NCBI GenBank assembly: GCA_021793595.1
Contig: JAJYSL010000301.1
Span: forward strand, 1-5,523
Direction: 5' to 3'
Origin: Acidobacteriota bacterium
GTDB taxonomy: Bacteria > Acidobacteriota > Terriglobia > Terriglobales > Acidobacteriaceae
DNA: 5,523 nucleotides
Part shown: positions 1-5,523 of the stretch, piece after piece
How the letters are laid out: every line of letters starts with the position of its first letter
How positions within the stretch are numbered: position 1 is the stretch's first letter
The notes under the pieces: generated by a model
What the model saw: only the letters and a program-made list of their open reading frames with translations
Database searches by the model: none
What the model was told of the DNA's origin: nothing
Translations under genes and position numbers: made by a program

Positions 1-474
1 TTGCCCGCACTGGAGCCGGCATTGCAGGTTGCATCTCCGGAACTGGAGAGCCTGCAATCGCAGTTGCTCGCGGTCCTAGGACGCGCCCTCTGTATCCGCC
101 ACGTCGATGCCGGTTCCTGCAATGGCTGCGAACTGGAAATCCAATCGTTGCACAATCCGTATTACAACTTGGAAGGCACCGGCATCCACTTTGTCGCCAG
201 CCCGCGTCATGCAGATCTGCTATTGGTCACCGGTCCCGTCTCGGTCAATATGGAAGAGGCCTTGCGGCGCACCTACGACGCCATCCCCGGACCAAAACTT
301 GTCATCGCACTGGGGGATTGCGCAGCCTGCGGCGGCATCTTTGGCTCAAGCTACGCCAGTCGCGGCAGCGTGGCGAACATTCTCCCGGTAAACACAACCG
401 TTGCCGGATGCCCCCCCACGCCAAATGCCATCTTGCGCGCCATTCTCGAGACGGTCCGCGCCCCGTCGAGGTAA
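1..474 (+). CDS. [NiFe]-hydrogenase group 4-type small subunit (HyfI/HycG/NuoB family)
   Basis: This looks like the electron-transfer small subunit of a membrane-bound group 4 [NiFe] hydrogenase or a hydrogenase-related complex, the subunit that carries the proximal [4Fe-4S] cluster next to the large subunit. Visible ligands are C40 and C43 in SCNGCE, C107 in GDCAACGG and C137 in AGCPPTP. C110 is an extra cysteine in the third motif. PRHADLLLVTGPV at about 68-80 is typical of HycG/HyfI proteins. The spaced CxxC fits the hydrogenase branch better than NuoB, which has adjacent cysteines. It ends soon after GCPPTP, so it is a short form (157 residues), closer to EchC/CooL size than to HycG. The first codon is TTG at the window edge and the frame is open there, so the true start could lie further left. 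The 39 residues before C40 match the length seen in HycG, so TTG is plausible. HyfI is normally the last structural gene of its operon, which fits the lack of a following co-directional gene. Physiological direction and partners cannot be seen here. Confidence 0.85.
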   Translation: MPALEPALQVASPELESLQSQLLAVLGRALCIRHVDAGSCNGCELEIQSLHNPYYNLEGTGIHFVASPRHADLLLVTGPVSVNMEEALRRTYDAIPGPKLVIALGDCAACGGIFGSSYASRGSVANILPVNTTVAGCPPTPNAILRAILETVRAPSR

Positions 475-633: not shown

Positions 634-876
634 CTAGACTCTCCCATTCAACGCCCGTAGAAACTGATGCTTATCCATACGGTATTTGAATGCTTTACGG
701 CCATCAATGAAAACTACGGGCACTTCGTCATTGAATTGCATTCGCAACTCATGATCGGCATCGATATCCAGTTCACGCCACTGAAAGTCAGCGTCGCCTT
801 CAGACTCTGTAACGATCTGCTTGATCACGTCACAGAGATGACATCCTTTGCGCGAAAAAATCACCACGTCATGCAT
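634..876 (-). CDS. Glutaredoxin-like thioredoxin-fold protein
   Basis: This is a small thiol-disulfide protein of the glutaredoxin-like (DUF836-type) family, about 80 residues and cytoplasmic because no signal peptide is visible. Numbering from the ATG at 876, the first strand VVIFSRKG is followed by the redox motif C12-H-L-C15 at the start of a helix. The acidic WRELDID strand comes next, then VPVVFIDG with the cis-proline P53, and a last helix DKHQFLRAL. These are the expected elements in the expected order. The frame also extends upstream to an ATG at 945 (103 residues), but those extra 23 residues do not look like part of the fold. Neither start has a strong Shine-Dalgarno sequence; the 945 start has only AGG a few bases upstream. 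I prefer 876 on family length. It is convergent with the hydrogenase-type gene and divergent from the sigma-54 activator. The substrate is unknown; a role in thiol or persulfide homeostasis is inference from the sulfur-related neighbourhood. Confidence 0.8.
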   Translation of the reverse strand: MHDVVIFSRKGCHLCDVIKQIVTESEGDADFQWRELDIDADHELRMQFNDEVPVVFIDGRKAFKYRMDKHQFLRALNGRV

Positions 877-963
877 AATGCCATTGTAGACGTGCGCCGC
901 GAAGCACCCGGTTTGCCGTGAAGCTCCAAAAGAGCTAGTGCCCATCGCCTATCGGGAACCTAA

Positions 964-1260: not shown

Positions 1261-1398
1261 ATGGAACCTTATGAACTGGATTCGATCCACATATGCTCAA
1301 TCACCGGGGTCGGCTCCTCCGGCAGGTTGAGCCGGAGGTTGCCAGTCGAGCGCGCTGGAGCGGCGCAAGCAGGGAACGCCTATGACGGATCGCGTTAA
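1261..1398 (+). CDS. Possible small upstream ORF (45 codons) overlapping the activator start
   Basis: An ATG at 1261 opens a 45-codon frame beginning MEPYELDSIHICSITGVGSS and ending with TAA at 1396-1398. It is preceded by a strong Shine-Dalgarno sequence, GGAGAGG at 1247-1253, seven bases from the ATG. That is better than the ribosome sites of several real genes in this window. The frame runs through the hairpin at 1312-1343 and overlaps the first 17 bases of the sigma-54 activator gene in another frame, an arrangement that could couple their translation. No domain or relative is recognised, and the C-terminal half is A/G/R-rich, as chance frames in GC-rich DNA often are. It could be a leader ORF, a small protein, or nothing. 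Confidence 0.28.
   Translation: MEPYELDSIHICSITGVGSSGRLSRRLPVERAGAAQAGNAYDGSR
1312..1343 (+). promoter_or_regulatory. Stable stem-loop in the leader of the sigma-54 activator gene
   Basis: CCTCCGGC at 1316-1323 pairs perfectly with GCCGGAGG at 1331-1338 around a 7-base loop. GGC (1312-1314) and GCC (1341-1343) can extend the stem across a small internal bulge. It ends 38 bases before the ATG at 1382. It has no following T-run, so it is not a standard intrinsic terminator. A role in attenuation, mRNA stability or coupling with the small ORF that spans it is possible but unproven. Confidence 0.5.
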
Positions 1399-2818
1399 GG
1401 AACTTACGTGCATGCCAGAGGGCGAGCCCTCGTTGAGCGAGGACACCCAGATAGCCCTATACGGTGTGACACACGTCTTGGCATCGGTGGGAAGGGCCTT
1501 CTTGTGCCTCGACGACAACTTCCGAATCGTTCATGCGTCTTATTTGCTCGATGATTTGATGGGCAGCGGAATCTCCTCGATGTTGGCGGGCCGCGCGGCA
1601 GAAGACTTATTGGGCACGAGCGTCTTCGGCCCAGGTGCACCCTTGCGACGGGCGCTGGAGGATGGCCAAAAGCGCGAGGGATGGCGCGCCACCATGCAAT
1701 TCGGCGAGAACAAGCCGAGGCTTGTTTCCATCACCGCCGCTCCCCTCCTTGGAGGAGAATCGAATACCTGCGATGCGCGGATGAAGTATGTAGTTCTACT
1801 TCGCCCTGCGGAAGAAGAAGGCATATGGTCGAATGCGGCCACCTTCATCTCCAACGCCGTTGTATGTTCCCCTGCCATGCAGCGCATCTTTCGCCTGGTG
1901 GAAGCGCTGCAGCACAGCGAAGCCCCCGTCCTAATTACGGGAGAGAGTGGCACTGGGAAGGAGGTCGTGGCTCGCGCCATCCACGAGAGCTCGCCGCGCA
2001 GCCACGGACCCTTCGTTGCGGTCAATTGCAGTGCTGTACCGGCGGACCTGTTGGAATCGGAGTTGTTCGGTCACGTTTGCGGAGCCTTCACTGGCGCGGT
2101 TCGCGATCGCGTGGGCCGCTTTGAACTAGCTGCGGGCGGAACCCTGTTTTTGGACGAAATCGGCGACATGCCGCCCCTGCAACAGGTAAAACTGTTGCGC
2201 GTTCTGCAGGGCGGGCACTATGAGCGAGTCGGAGAGAGCGTGCCACGGGTCGCTGACGTTCGCATCATCGCCGCAACCAACGCGGATATTCGGCTGGCTC
2301 TGCGCCAGGGACGGTTGCGGGAGGATCTGTACTATCGGTTGTGTGTAGTTCCTATCGAAGTCCCTCCATTGCGCCAGCGCAGAGAGGATATTGCCCCCCT
2401 TGCCGCCTATCTCCTCGATCGTGTCACGTCGCAGCGCGGTCTGATCCGGCGTATTTCGCCGCAGGCCATGCGCCTACTGATGGAGTATTCCTGGCCCGGC
2501 AACGTAAGGGAGCTTGCCAACGTCATGGAATACGCCGTGGCCGTTGCGAAGATTGAGACGATCCTCCCCGAAGATCTTCCCGACGAGATTCGAGCGCCGC
2601 AATCGACATTGCACGTAAAAACAGAGGCGCAGGAACCAGTTCCTGAGCAGGAAAGTCTCCCGAACCCATCCTTGTCTCAGGAATCCGACCGCCTGGTTGC
2701 TGCATTGGATGCCCATCACTGGTCCCGTTCGGAAGCAGCGCAGGCCCTCGGTCTAAGCCGCTCTACTCTGTGGCGCAAAATGCGGGAACTGCATCTTGCA
2801 GATCGGCGCAAGCCTTAA
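1382..2818 (+). CDS. Sigma-54-dependent transcriptional activator (PAS-AAA+-Fis HTH)
   Basis: This is a bacterial enhancer-binding protein that uses ATP hydrolysis to open promoters held by sigma-54 RNA polymerase. The N-terminal region, about 27-145, has PAS-like sequence and would be the sensor; there is no phospho-receiver domain. The AAA+ domain (about 160-402) shows Walker A GESGTGKE at 187-194, the sigma-54 contact loop GAFTGA at 234-239, Walker B GGTLFLDEI at 252-260, sensor I IAATN at 296-300, the arginine-rich LREDLYYRL at 312-320, and sensor II WPGNVREL at 371-378. A linker leads to a Fis-type helix-turn-helix at about 444-472, including SEAAQALGLSRSTLWRKM. The start is supported by AGGGA at 1371-1375, six bases upstream. 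All catalytic motifs are intact. The residues before GAFTGA are V-C instead of the usual E-K. Its gene lies just upstream of a sigma-54 promoter and dyad, so the FadL-like gene is its likely target; the hydrogenase-type operon could be another. The signal is unknown. Confidence 0.95.
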   Translation: MTDRVKELTCMPEGEPSLSEDTQIALYGVTHVLASVGRAFLCLDDNFRIVHASYLLDDLMGSGISSMLAGRAAEDLLGTSVFGPGAPLRRALEDGQKREGWRATMQFGENKPRLVSITAAPLLGGESNTCDARMKYVVLLRPAEEEGIWSNAATFISNAVVCSPAMQRIFRLVEALQHSEAPVLITGESGTGKEVVARAIHESSPRSHGPFVAVNCSAVPADLLESELFGHVCGAFTGAVRDRVGRFELAAGGTLFLDEIGDMPPLQQVKLLRVLQGGHYERVGESVPRVADVRIIAATNADIRLALRQGRLREDLYYRLCVVPIEVPPLRQRREDIAPLAAYLLDRVTSQRGLIRRISPQAMRLLMEYSWPGNVRELANVMEYAVAVAKIETILPEDLPDEIRAPQSTLHVKTEAQEPVPEQESLPNPSLSQESDRLVAALDAHHWSRSEAAQALGLSRSTLWRKMRELHLADRRKP

Positions 2819-2833
2819 GGCCGCCTGTTTCAA

Positions 2834-2858
2834 GTGTTGCAACGTCTTGTTGCTACAC
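2834..2858. promoter_or_regulatory. Dyad, likely enhancer (UAS) for the sigma-54 activator
   Basis: Left arm GTGTTGCAAC (2834-2843) and right arm GTTGCTACAC (2849-2858) form an inverted repeat with 9 of 10 matching pairs around a 5-bp spacer. The dyad centre lies about 97 bp upstream of the predicted sigma-54 transcription start, within the usual range for an enhancer-binding protein site. It starts 16 bases after the activator's stop codon. As RNA it could also form a hairpin, but no T-run follows, so termination is less likely. Binding by the neighbouring Fis-type HTH protein is inference. Confidence 0.6.
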
Positions 2859-2895
2859 AATGTTTCACTCCAATTCTTGCATCCAGTAAAGTACT

Positions 2896-2908
2896 CATTC
2901 CATTGATT
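2896..2908 (-). promoter_or_regulatory. IHF-like site between enhancer and promoter
   Basis: Read on the minus strand the sequence is AATCAATGGAATG, which agrees with the IHF consensus WATCAANNNNTTR except at one T. It lies between the dyad at 2834-2858 and the sigma-54 promoter, where IHF commonly bends DNA to bring the activator to the polymerase. It is overlapped by the perfect palindrome ATTGCGCAAT at 2906-2915. One such match can occur by chance. Confidence 0.28.
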
Positions 2909-2916
2909 GCGCAATT

Positions 2917-2932
2917 TGGAATACAACTTGCA
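2917..2932 (+). promoter_or_regulatory. Sigma-54 (-24/-12) promoter of the FadL-like gene
   Basis: TGGAATACAACTTGCA carries the invariant GG (2918-2919) and GC (2930-2931) separated by exactly 10 bases. It matches TGGCAC-N5-TTGCA fully in the -12 TTGCA and in TGG and one further base of the -24 element. Transcription would start near 2943, giving a leader of about 15 bases to the ATG at 2958 or about 45 bases to the one at 2988. The adjacent activator gene and dyad make the call stronger than the motif alone. Confidence 0.72.
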
Positions 2933-2957
2933 TTCATGTGTTCGTAAGTAGGGCGAT

Positions 2958-4265
2958 ATGACGACGCACCTACAGGATGGACTCACGATGCCACGATGCG
3001 AGAATGACCAGTCAAAAGCTTGCAGCACTGCTCCGCGGACTATTTTTCTTGCCTTGGTGCTGTTGGCATATAGCGCGACATGCTTGGCTACCAATGGCTA
3101 TCAACTCATTGGAATTGGGCAATGCTCCATGGGAATGGGCGGGGCTGTGGTCGCCGCTCCCTGCGATCCGATGACAGCCATCAGCAATCCTGCCGGCTTG
3201 GCGTGGCTAGCACCGCAAACAGCATTTTCCGGAGAAATCTTCAATCCCGAGCGTAGTACTAACTTTGGCTTTGGTAATACTGGCAGCCACACCAATGTGT
3301 ATGCCATACCCGCGCTAGGCTGGTCGGCGCCGGCATTTCGCCCTAATCTCTACTTCGGCGGCGGCATTTACGGTACTTCCGGACTGGGCGTGAATTACTT
3401 GCAACCGAACACTCCGATGGGAACCATCCAGGCATTTAGCAGTATCGACTTCATGCAAATGGCCCCAGCTATTGGCCTCAAGATGACGGACAAGATCAGT
3501 GTCGGCCTGGCGTTGAATGTCGGCGCCGAGCAGGTGTCCTTTAACGAGAGCTTTAATGACCAGGGCCTCGACCTCACCAGTCCTTCCTGGGCCTACGGCG
3601 TAGGTGCGACCATCGGCGGCTTATACAAATACAACAAGAAGGTGGCTTTCGGTGCGTCCTATAAGTCCACTATGAAGTTCACCCACTTATTCTGGCAAGA
3701 GAATGAGGAGTTCATCCCCACAGGCGTCGGGGAGTCAGGACCCGTTGGCGTCTCAGGTGGCAACGGAACGTATCGAGCGCGACTGAATTATCCGCAGCAA
3801 GTTGCCTTCGGCCTCTCCCTCCATCCTGTGTCCAAATGGCTGGTGAGTACGGAGGGACAGTGGATCAACTGGCATAGCACGATGAACCAGTTCAAGGTGT
3901 TCGGTCCCTGGGAAGGAACTGGGGTTGTGGCGCTGCCTCTTCATTGGCAGAACCAGTGGGTGGGCAACCTGGGCACGCAGTATGACCTTCAATCCTGGCA
4001 AGTTCGCGCGGGCTTTGTCTACGGAGGCAATCCGATCCATAGCGCGGACTTACAAGCCAATCTGATTATGCCCGCCATCGTGACGACCGCGGTTACCTTC
4101 GGCGCTACGCAGAAATTGCCGATGCGATGGACCCTGACCGAGGCCATTATGCATACGTTCAAGGAAACCAGTACCGACGGCACTCTTTTCGGTATGCCTA
4201 TAGCTCCATTGCAGTCCTCGATGTCTCAGAATTCAATTGGCATTCAGATCGGATATTTCTTCTAA
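2958..4265 (+). CDS. FadL/OmpP1/TodX-family outer-membrane transport protein
   Basis: This is an outer-membrane beta-barrel of the family that imports hydrophobic compounds such as fatty acids or toluene. Counting from the ATG at 2958, a basic n-region and hydrophobic IFLALVLLAYSATCLA (29-44) form a signal peptide with likely cleavage before TNGYQ at 45. The N-terminal hatch region follows, with GIGQCSMGMGGAVVAAPCDP and the family-typical SNPAGL (76-81). The rest is alternating aromatic/glycine beta-strand sequence, and the protein ends in GYFF, the terminal aromatic expected for barrel assembly. Length (435) is normal for the family. Another start at 2988 has AGGA ten bases upstream and gives a more usual 34-residue signal peptide; the first ATG has AGGG four bases upstream. 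The only cysteines in the mature protein are C56 and C69, both in the hatch. The gene is preceded by a sigma-54 promoter and dyad. Transport of sulfur or another hydrophobic substrate is inference from the sulfur genes downstream. Confidence 0.88.
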   Translation: MTTHLQDGLTMPRCENDQSKACSTAPRTIFLALVLLAYSATCLATNGYQLIGIGQCSMGMGGAVVAAPCDPMTAISNPAGLAWLAPQTAFSGEIFNPERSTNFGFGNTGSHTNVYAIPALGWSAPAFRPNLYFGGGIYGTSGLGVNYLQPNTPMGTIQAFSSIDFMQMAPAIGLKMTDKISVGLALNVGAEQVSFNESFNDQGLDLTSPSWAYGVGATIGGLYKYNKKVAFGASYKSTMKFTHLFWQENEEFIPTGVGESGPVGVSGGNGTYRARLNYPQQVAFGLSLHPVSKWLVSTEGQWINWHSTMNQFKVFGPWEGTGVVALPLHWQNQWVGNLGTQYDLQSWQVRAGFVYGGNPIHSADLQANLIMPAIVTTAVTFGATQKLPMRWTLTEAIMHTFKETSTDGTLFGMPIAPLQSSMSQNSIGIQIGYFF

Positions 4266-4461: not shown

Positions 4462-4881
4462 ATGTCCACGAACAATGTACAGCAGGACCGCCATCTGGAC
4501 TGTAATCGAATGGGCGACTTCTTCATGATCCTTGCCCACTCCACACGGATGCGCATTTTTTGCGCCCTGCAAAACGGCTCCAAGAGCGTGACCCGAATCG
4601 CCGAAGAAGCGGAGATATCGGTCTCCAACGCATCGCAACATTTACGTTTGATGCGCGACCGCGGCGCGGTCATCTCCGAGAGGCAAGGTCAAACCGTGTT
4701 TTATGGGGTCGCCGATCCGCGGTTTTTTCAGGCAGCCAGTCTGATTCGAGACGCGCTGGATGACAGAAGAAAAGTGAACGAGTGCAGCCGTTTCCCAGGA
4801 TGCGCGCAAGCACTGACGGAAACCGATCGAACAGTTGAGGAACTTTCTACTGACTCGGTCCACCACCCATCAACCAACTAG
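4462..4881 (+). CDS. ArsR/SmtB-family repressor, possible persulfide or redox sensor
   Basis: This is a winged-helix DNA-binding repressor of the ArsR family, 139 residues. ILAHSTRMRIFCAL (23-36) is the typical second helix. The recognition region is VTRIAEEAEISVSNASQHLRLM at 43-64, and the wing is ERQGQTVFYGV (73-83). The classical ArsR metal motif ELCVCDL is absent at that position. Cysteines are C14, C34, C108 and C114. C34 sits at the same place in the helix as the first reactive cysteine of the persulfide sensors BigR and SqrR, and C108/C114 lie in the C-terminal tail. The spacing C34 to C108 (74) is longer than the roughly 66 residues known for those proteins, so the sensor role is only likely. 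The start is supported by AGGGAGG at 4451-4457. It ends 12 bases before tusA, so the two are probably one transcript, and it likely controls its own operon. Ligand and operator are not shown. Confidence 0.88.
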   Translation: MSTNNVQQDRHLDCNRMGDFFMILAHSTRMRIFCALQNGSKSVTRIAEEAEISVSNASQHLRLMRDRGAVISERQGQTVFYGVADPRFFQAASLIRDALDDRRKVNECSRFPGCAQALTETDRTVEELSTDSVHHPSTN

Positions 4882-5257: not shown

Positions 5258-5523
5258 ATGGCCGATGTTTTCGTCCCTAAGATACTTGTGCTGGCCACTG
5301 AGAAGTGTGCCTATCCTGGCGCAGACGCGGTAGGAAAAGCACATTTGGAATACCCCTCCAGTGTTTACATTTTGCGGGTGCTCTCGCCGGTGCTGTTCCC
5401 GGAAGATTTTTATTTGCGGACCTACAGCAAAGGAATCGACGGCATCCTTGTTGCCGCCTGCGGTTCGGACTGTCCCTACCATGGGGCGTACGACCGTCTT
5501 GCGGCACGTATCGATCAACTCAC
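5258..5523 (+). CDS. MvhD-family hydrogenase/Hdr-associated iron-sulfur subunit (3' truncated by window)
   Basis: The first 88 codons resemble MvhD, the small [2Fe-2S] subunit that passes electrons between a hydrogenase or dehydrogenase and heterodisulfide reductase HdrA; related domains occur in QmoB. Matching landmarks are KILVLATEKCAYPGAD (8-23), EYPSSVYILRV (31-41), the helix FYLRTYSKG and GIDGILVAACGSDCPYHGAY (59-78). Typical MvhD has several cysteines in the first motif, one after the second strand and C-x4-C in the last. Here only C17, C68 and C72 are present in this part, the last pair spaced C-x3-C, so cluster binding may be altered or lost. The ATG at 5258 has GAGGTG at 5248-5253; the frame is closed upstream by TAG at 5231. 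The gene continues past the window end. Standing behind tusA, it probably belongs to an Hdr-like sulfur-oxidation or electron-bifurcation cluster further right; that is inference. Confidence 0.78.
   Translation, partial: MADVFVPKILVLATEKCAYPGADAVGKAHLEYPSSVYILRVLSPVLFPEDFYLRTYSKGIDGILVAACGSDCPYHGAYDRLAARIDQL

Follow-up and report, generated by a model that had tools for sequence, protein, structure and literature searches.

A conserved sigma-54 control region by which a neighbouring activator probably switches on the gene of an outer-membrane channel in an acid-mine Acidobacterium

A conserved switch was identified in the DNA of an acid-mine Acidobacterium which, as read from sequence, probably lets a neighbouring activator turn on the gene of an outer-membrane channel. 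The window, meaning the whole stretch of 5,523 nucleotides that was analyzed, carries this switch between the gene of a PAS-type sigma-54 activator and that of a FadL/TodX-family barrel. A sigma-54 module at this place had been proposed in an earlier note on the same DNA, and it was upheld in two of its three parts, the IHF-like site being misplaced, together with its arrangement, which is conserved in relatives. The regulatory module is almost certainly real, and the operon of the window probably has a sulfur role. The full explanation that fits best, in which a thiol-sensing PAS activator would induce sulfur genes and this FadL would import hydrophobic sulfur, is fairly probable; it draws on the putative operator array and promoter, the activator domains, the PAS fold of a predicted model, RpoN in relatives, conservation, and the sulfur neighbours. 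The features of the window were as follows.

1-474, a NuoB-like fragment (hydrogenase or complex-I type subunit)
634-945, minus strand, a glutaredoxin-like gene
1382-2818, plus strand, the sigma-54 enhancer-binding activator (Pfam; PAS fold of a predicted model)
2826-2832, plus strand, half-site TGTTTCA, the remnant of dyad D1, which lies near -118 in relatives
2838-2854, plus strand, operator dyad D2, TGCAACG-N3-TGTTGCT, near -97, on the same axis as the dyad of the earlier note
2851-2867, plus strand, operator dyad D3, TGCTACA-N3-TGTTTCA, near -84, overlapping D2
2887-2899, minus strand, an IHF-consensus-like element, TAAAGTACTCATT, 7/9, at the place conserved in the family
2896-2908, minus strand, the IHF-like match of the earlier note, not above chance and kept in the closest clade only
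2917-2932, plus strand, the -24/-12 promoter, TGGAATACAACTTGCA (GG at 2918-2919, N10, GC at 2930-2931)
2958-4265, plus strand, the FadL/TodX-family outer-membrane barrel (Pfam; alignment)
4462-4881, plus strand, an ArsR-type regulator with two cysteines, C14 and C34
4894-5148, plus strand, a TusA sulfur carrier (Pfam)
5258-5523, plus strand, the start of an MvhD/FlpD-like protein that runs off the window

Regions flanking the activator were collected by a scan of genome contigs with the barrel and by a search of 300 genomes of the family with the activator. The activator was found in 19 of the 300 genomes (E up to 1e-140) and this FadL in 13 (E up to 1e-60), with nine genomes in both lists, and the closest relatives of the two proteins, where named by the source, were Acidobacteriota MAGs. 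Twenty-four regions were assessable, ten of them reached through fadL (the window and nine loci) and 14 through the activator, so that the sample favors fadL neighbours. Two loci with a truncated activator (L088 and L015) were dropped ahead of this count, and three without the module (L083, L087, and L090) were scored as misses within it; L053-L075 and L091-L122 were left uncounted because they overlap other loci or come from the same searches. A non-redundant set of 17 loci left out the near duplicates L006 and L016, L080 (promoter, no dyad of at least 12), and L085, a weaker locus added later (promoter 14/19; dyads 11, 12, and 12). The genome-level tests (RpoN, IHF, and operator scans) were run in the genomes of relatives.

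The -24/-12 promoter was present in 21 of the 24 assessable regions behind orthologous activators (Acidobacteriota, the window included), 60 to 130 bases past the stop codon of the activator. The pattern alone is weak: two occurrences with at most one mismatch were found in the window against 1.00 expected, and 54 of 200 shuffles had two or more, hence conservation decides. Within shuffles of the window's own region, a promoter as good arose in 2.2% (P 0.022). The GG-N10-GC promoter lies between the activator and barrel genes, as stated in the earlier note, and its TGG and TGC showed no change in any of the 17 non-redundant loci. Identity to the window in 13 more distant loci was near chance in both the spacer (21-37%) and the leader (11-33%), so close kinship does not account for the invariant bases. 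A near-ideal promoter, TGGCAC-N5-TTGCT, occurs in some relatives (L003, L004, and L051). All 14 relatives encode RpoN. Neither a sigma-70-type promoter nor a terminator-like hairpin was seen in positions 2700-3100 of the window, and the transcription start would be expected near 2943.

Ahead of the promoter, the earlier note had described a single dyad at 2834-2858. This dyad, GTGTTGCAAC-GTCTT-GTTGCTACAC, is present with 9 of 10 pairs and recurs in relatives, and its core, TGTTGCAAC..TTGTTGC, has a single copy in the window and none in 200 shuffles; the description was incomplete, however, as the dyad is the middle of a multi-dyad array. The family operator consists of up to three 17-bp dyads, TGMRACR-N3-YGTYKCA, whose midpoints fall at -118, -97, and -84, give or take about 3 bp, relative to the expected transcription start. 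All three reached at least 12/14 in 14 of 20 loci, a count that leaves out L085 (12 of the 17 non-redundant loci). Two dyads did so in the window and L086, one in L077 and L084, and none in L080 and L089; in the window, D1 falls below 12/14 and only its half-site remains. Among shuffles of the window's region (170 bases from the activator stop codon), a dyad as good was found in 0.6% and a dyad and promoter both as good in 0 of 1000, values that are optimistic since the dyad pattern, like the marker proteins used below, was drawn from the loci on which it was scored. In the comparison of intergenic regions from relatives that had been suggested as a check, the -24/-12 bases were invariant across the non-redundant loci and the dyads recurred at fixed places in most loci.

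The operator was also searched for across 16 genomes of relatives. Exact matches were confined to the activator locus and were present in 10 of the 16, which agrees with the earlier view of a dedicated activator, although the targets of the family vary, as described below. A wider operator regulon was rejected: outside the activator loci and L012, 17 one-mismatch matches were found in the 16 genomes against 23 for a reversed-pattern control.

The IHF-like site of the earlier note fared differently from the promoter. A 12-of-13 match does exist at 2896-2908, but four such matches were found in the window against 3.0 expected, and the site retains eight of nine specified bases only in the window, L001, L002, and L006; L076, the closest relative, keeps seven, and no other locus more than five. 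It was rejected as near chance expectation and not conserved beyond the closest clade. The conserved place lies 9 bp upstream, at 2887-2899, where column counts first revealed TAA....TTGAT 30 to 18 bases ahead of the TGG. When scored afterwards against the IHF consensus, this offset gave the best fit, with a mean of 6.88/9 over 17 loci compared with 2.95 +/- 0.82 for all offsets on both strands. The element scored 9/9 in L078, L086, and L089 and 7/9 in the window, and there was no fit at that offset in L008, L010, L016, and L084. Genes of the HU/IHF family were present in 14 of 14 relatives; neither IHF model was above cut-off in any of the 14, the best match being 81 against 120 bits for IHF-alpha and the best matches for IHF-beta being 99-112 bits, near its 120.

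The activator comprises a PAS domain (residues 20-145, approximately), an AAA+ domain (162-326) and lid with the GAFTGA motif, and a Fis-type HTH (Pfam PF00158, 226 bits; HTH_8, 48 bits). No Pfam match above cut-off was obtained for the N-terminal domain, but the model predicted for it shows a PAS fold close to flavin-bearing examples, those of Aer and NifL among them. Among 96 activator sequences, all found through this N-terminal domain, GAFTGA was present in 92, and the PAS-domain cysteines C42 and C130 in 96 and 95, respectively, a conservation that can be structural. In the window activator, C10, C42, and C130 lie N-terminal to the AAA+ domain and C162 on its border, and no two of these are 11 residues apart. 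One genome (G010) carries two copies of the activator, at L089 and L090, and no module lies behind the latter.

A likeness to FisR of Cupriavidus pinatubonensis and Acinetobacter baumannii, drawn from published descriptions, suggests what the PAS domain may sense. FisR is likewise a sigma-54 activator with a regulatory domain before the AAA+ and HTH domains, and in excerpts of the literature it activates sulfide-oxidation operons, lies beside an SQR operon, and possibly senses sulfane sulfur by cysteines (PMC7315123, PMC8614764). In the same excerpts, the Cupriavidus protein forms a tetrasulfide between C53 and C64 (PMC8614764), while the A. baumannii protein is without those cysteines and still answers sulfide (PMC7315123). 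The C53-C64 pair is absent from the window activator, where the conserved cysteines are C42 and C130 of the PAS domain. The analogy suggests polysulfide sensing here, though the cysteine positions differ, and sensing of this kind through the cysteines is put forward tentatively, at slightly less than an even chance. The two families also differ in their neighbours, which for the window activator include FadL, DUF302, and Qmo/Tus genes; members of its family stand ahead of SQR genes, by position only, in L077-L079, L082, L086, and L089, and not in the window. Another acidophile in which sulfur oxidation is under sigma-54 control is Acidithiobacillus, for which a review and a comparative-genomics paper on Acidithiobacillia, in excerpts, name TspS/TspR (PMC10531304, PMC12194929), a two-component system at the sox cluster, whereas the window activator is of a one-component PAS type.

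The activator may instead answer a cue other than a sulfur species, such as oxygen, hydrogen, or redox state read by way of a flavin or haem cofactor. This is plausible without being favored: the resemblance of the PAS fold to the flavin-bearing domains of Aer and NifL speaks for it, and it is countered by the two near-invariant cysteines, by SQR, DsrC, and TusA among the neighbours, and by FisR as an earlier case of a sigma-54 activator that senses sulfane sulfur (PMC8614764, in excerpt).

The genes behind the promoter varied among loci. For example, in L001-L004, L006, L008, and L051 the promoter is followed by a DUF302 gene and then by fadL, while in the window (2932-2988) there is no DUF302 gene and the promoter joins fadL directly. 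No Pfam scan of the DUF302 protein itself was above cut-off; PF03625 is carried by its homologues, and its signal peptide was judged by eye. In an excerpted report, a DUF302 gene occurs in the sox clusters of Acidithiobacillia and other sulfur oxidizers (PMC5037610). A distant FadL, 24-26% identical to that of the window where compared, lies behind the promoter of the activator family in L077-L081, L084, and L085, and in L077-L079 it is followed by SQR-DsrC-DsrE2. In L082, L086, and L089, SQR-DsrC-DsrE2 stands directly behind the promoter without fadL. The SQR was above the NCBIfam type III cut-off in all three cases tested (L077, L082, and L089), and the relatives in the PDB of the one SQR compared (L082) are solved sulfide:quinone oxidoreductases. 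The varied presumed targets (DUF302-fadL, the other FadL, and the SQR operon) indicate that the activator family belongs to a mostly sulfur-linked regulon that extends beyond this FadL. As side observations, the type III matches are of a 'selenoprotein subtype', some loci that pair the distant FadL with this activator family are without sulfur genes, the NuoB-like gene of the window (1-474) has a 74% relative upstream of the activator in L008, and the glutaredoxin-like gene has a 67% relative beyond the SQR operon in L082.

Sulfur genes were found behind the module in 14 of 21 module loci; L051 and L076 end too early to be judged, and none were seen in L010, L016, L080, L081, and L085. Where a locus had been reached only by way of the activator, sulfur genes lay behind in seven of 14 assessable cases, which counts against the sulfur reading, as does the occurrence of this fadL with no such module ahead in L007, L009, L013, and L017. 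In L009 and L017, where activator and module are absent nearby, this fadL (which reads as two pieces in L017) is followed by SQR, DsrC, and DsrE2. L012 carries a promoter, TTGGCACGCAGCGTGCTT (18/19), and dyads of 10, 13, and 10 of 14 ahead of fadL, and no activator was found on its 11-kb contig. The first 5000 bases of this locus are identical to G010:C311; that genome also carries L089, whose activator lies ahead of SQR-DsrC-DsrE2.

Given the gene order in L001-L004, L006, L008, and L051, the promoter might belong to the DUF302 gene, with fadL only second and the promoter-fadL junction of the window a lineage-specific loss. A weaker module in L014 (about 1-390, minus strand; dyads 11, 11, and 13 of 14) agrees with this, as it points away from fadL and faces what looks like a broken piece of a DUF302 gene (68% over 28 residues, E 2e-8). 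The reading is nevertheless unlikely, for a module or promoter lies ahead of fadL with no DUF302 gene found between in L010, L016, and L012, and the same holds for the loci of the distant FadL (L077-L081, L084, and L085). Under either reading, fadL would be inside the controlled unit.

In the window, that unit may reach further. No sigma-70-type promoter was seen from fadL to tusA, and the single terminator-like hairpin in this stretch is located within arsR, so that read-through from fadL into arsR-tusA would be possible. The ArsR-type regulator retained C14 and C34 in 15 of 15 aligned sequences (the window and 14 loci of Acidobacteriota and Planctomycetota), and a second thiol-based switch may thus sit in the operon. 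Behind ArsR-TusA, relatives encode MvhD, two HdrA-like (QmoA/B-like) proteins, a QmoC-like protein (214 bits, below its 300-bit cut-off), and DsrE2, and the MvhD/FlpD-like gene at the end of the window corresponds to the first of this QmoA-, QmoB-, and QmoC-like plus DsrE2 set. The sulfur setting that the earlier note had suspected was thereby borne out, with TusA and MvhD in the window and Qmo-like proteins, DsrE2, and SQR in relatives.

The barrel matched Toluene_X of Pfam at 74.7 bits (cut-off 29.7), a match shared with the TodX/TbuX/CymD branch of the FadL family. Residues N77, P78, and A79 were invariant in 33 sequences, and this NPA motif is a hallmark of the family. The N-terminal signal was judged by eye; an alternative start at 2988 is preceded by AGGA and roughly matches, in the alignment, the point where P0010 begins. 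Among proteins of solved structure, TbuX, TodX, and CymD come closest in sequence, closer than FadL proper, and these three carry aromatic hydrocarbons, which counts against a sulfur cargo. Unlike them, the window barrel sits in a sulfur-metabolism setting, from which its substrate would be read. Relatives of the barrel include proteins of Acidithiobacillus (46-57% identity) and planctomycetes (48-55%), which are about equally close.

Of the 52 loci with a member of this FadL clade, which come from three phyla, 40 had a sulfur or sHdr-linked lipoate marker nearby, and its occurrence varied among groups: 10 of 19 acidobacterial loci, 22 of 23 from Acidithiobacillus or unnamed proteobacteria, and 8 of 10 planctomycete loci, with group names taken from MAG records in which single contigs could be misassigned. 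The nine acidobacterial loci without a marker, some of them cut by contig ends, count against the sulfur reading. Three planctomycete loci were counted by a DsrE2 6-7 kb off, with a weak QmoC match in two, and 7 of the 22 Acidithiobacillus-type loci rely on LipS2 or LplA alone for their marker. In each of the 15 Acidithiobacillus-type loci whose contigs extend 8 kb upstream, fadL was preceded by HdrB, LbpA, LipS1, and LipS2 (in L018, LipS1 and LipS2 scored below NCBIfam's own cut-offs). The lipoate ligase LplA followed downstream in these 15, separated from fadL by one small gene, the exception being L046, where the contig ends. The sHdr-LbpA cluster of Acidithiobacillus thus holds relatives of the window FadL, while the clade of the window has TusA-MvhD-Qmo-like genes instead. 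The possibility that a comparable sigma-54 module precedes fadL in Acidithiobacillus or Planctomycetota was rejected, as none was above thresholds in L018-L050; the fadL genes of Acidithiobacillus differ in this from the window.

To our knowledge, there is no established family of elemental-sulfur importers. Excerpts of the literature attribute the entry of S0 to 'unknown transporters' and postulated outer-membrane proteins (PMC7082400) or, in a review, to Omp40 as a likely route (PMC10531304). In open-licence literature naming FadL together with sulfur terms, the excerpts among the matches listed gave no link between FadL and sulfur uptake; the FadL match in the excerpt of PMC7677001 was an author's name. 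A proteome paper on A. thiooxidans under acid stress, as excerpted, interprets a FadL as a transporter of fatty acids (PMC10487802). This report, the FadL/TodX membership with TbuX, TodX, and CymD as nearest solved relatives, and the presence of the module and this FadL without a sulfur marker in L010 and L016 would fit a genuine sigma-54 system whose barrel imports fatty acids or aromatic hydrocarbons, with coincidental sulfur neighbours. That reading is unlikely, given that 40 of 52 loci of the clade, across three phyla, lie near sulfur or sHdr-linked genes of three different sets, and that the activator family stands directly ahead of SQR-DsrC-DsrE2 without fadL in L082, L086, and L089.

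It is hardly credible that the conserved region is the mere 3' end or terminator of the activator gene: every copy except those of L012 and L014 does sit behind that gene, but promoter and operator occur in L012 without an activator, which led to rejection, TGG-N10-TGC is invariant between spacers of near-chance identity in distant loci, and 2700-3100 holds no terminator-like hairpin.

In the preferred explanation, a sulfur operon would be controlled from positions 2826-2932. The activator encoded next to this region would bind the dyad array at about -84 to -118, and its PAS domain would respond to a signal, most likely polysulfide or persulfide, through C42 and C130. Once the domain is switched on, the AAA+ ring would contact RpoN polymerase waiting at TGG-N10-GC and open the promoter, a contact that bending of the DNA at 2887-2899 may help. 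The TodX/FadL-type barrel would most likely pass hydrophobic sulfur (S8 or polysulfanes) across the outer membrane, to be handed towards TusA, DsrE2, the Qmo/Hdr-like proteins, and DUF302 where present. For the barrel as an importer of hydrophobic sulfur, judged from its family and gene neighbours, we consider the chances evenly balanced. A broader proposal is speculative and somewhat unlikely as a whole: the FadL clade would be the missing elemental-sulfur importer of acidophiles in three phyla, moved between them, and in the Acidobacteriota it would have come under a new one-component sigma-54 activator whose PAS domain reads polysulfide by a C42-C130 bridge.

The route by which solid, hydrophobic sulfur enters Gram-negative cells is put down, in the excerpted text of PMC7082400, to 'unknown transporters'. 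A barrel of a family with hydrophobic cargo, found beside three sulfur gene sets in three phyla and behind a sigma-54 switch in one of them, offers a named gene and a DNA site, and the channel would be a testable candidate for the bacterial uptake of water-repelling sulfur.
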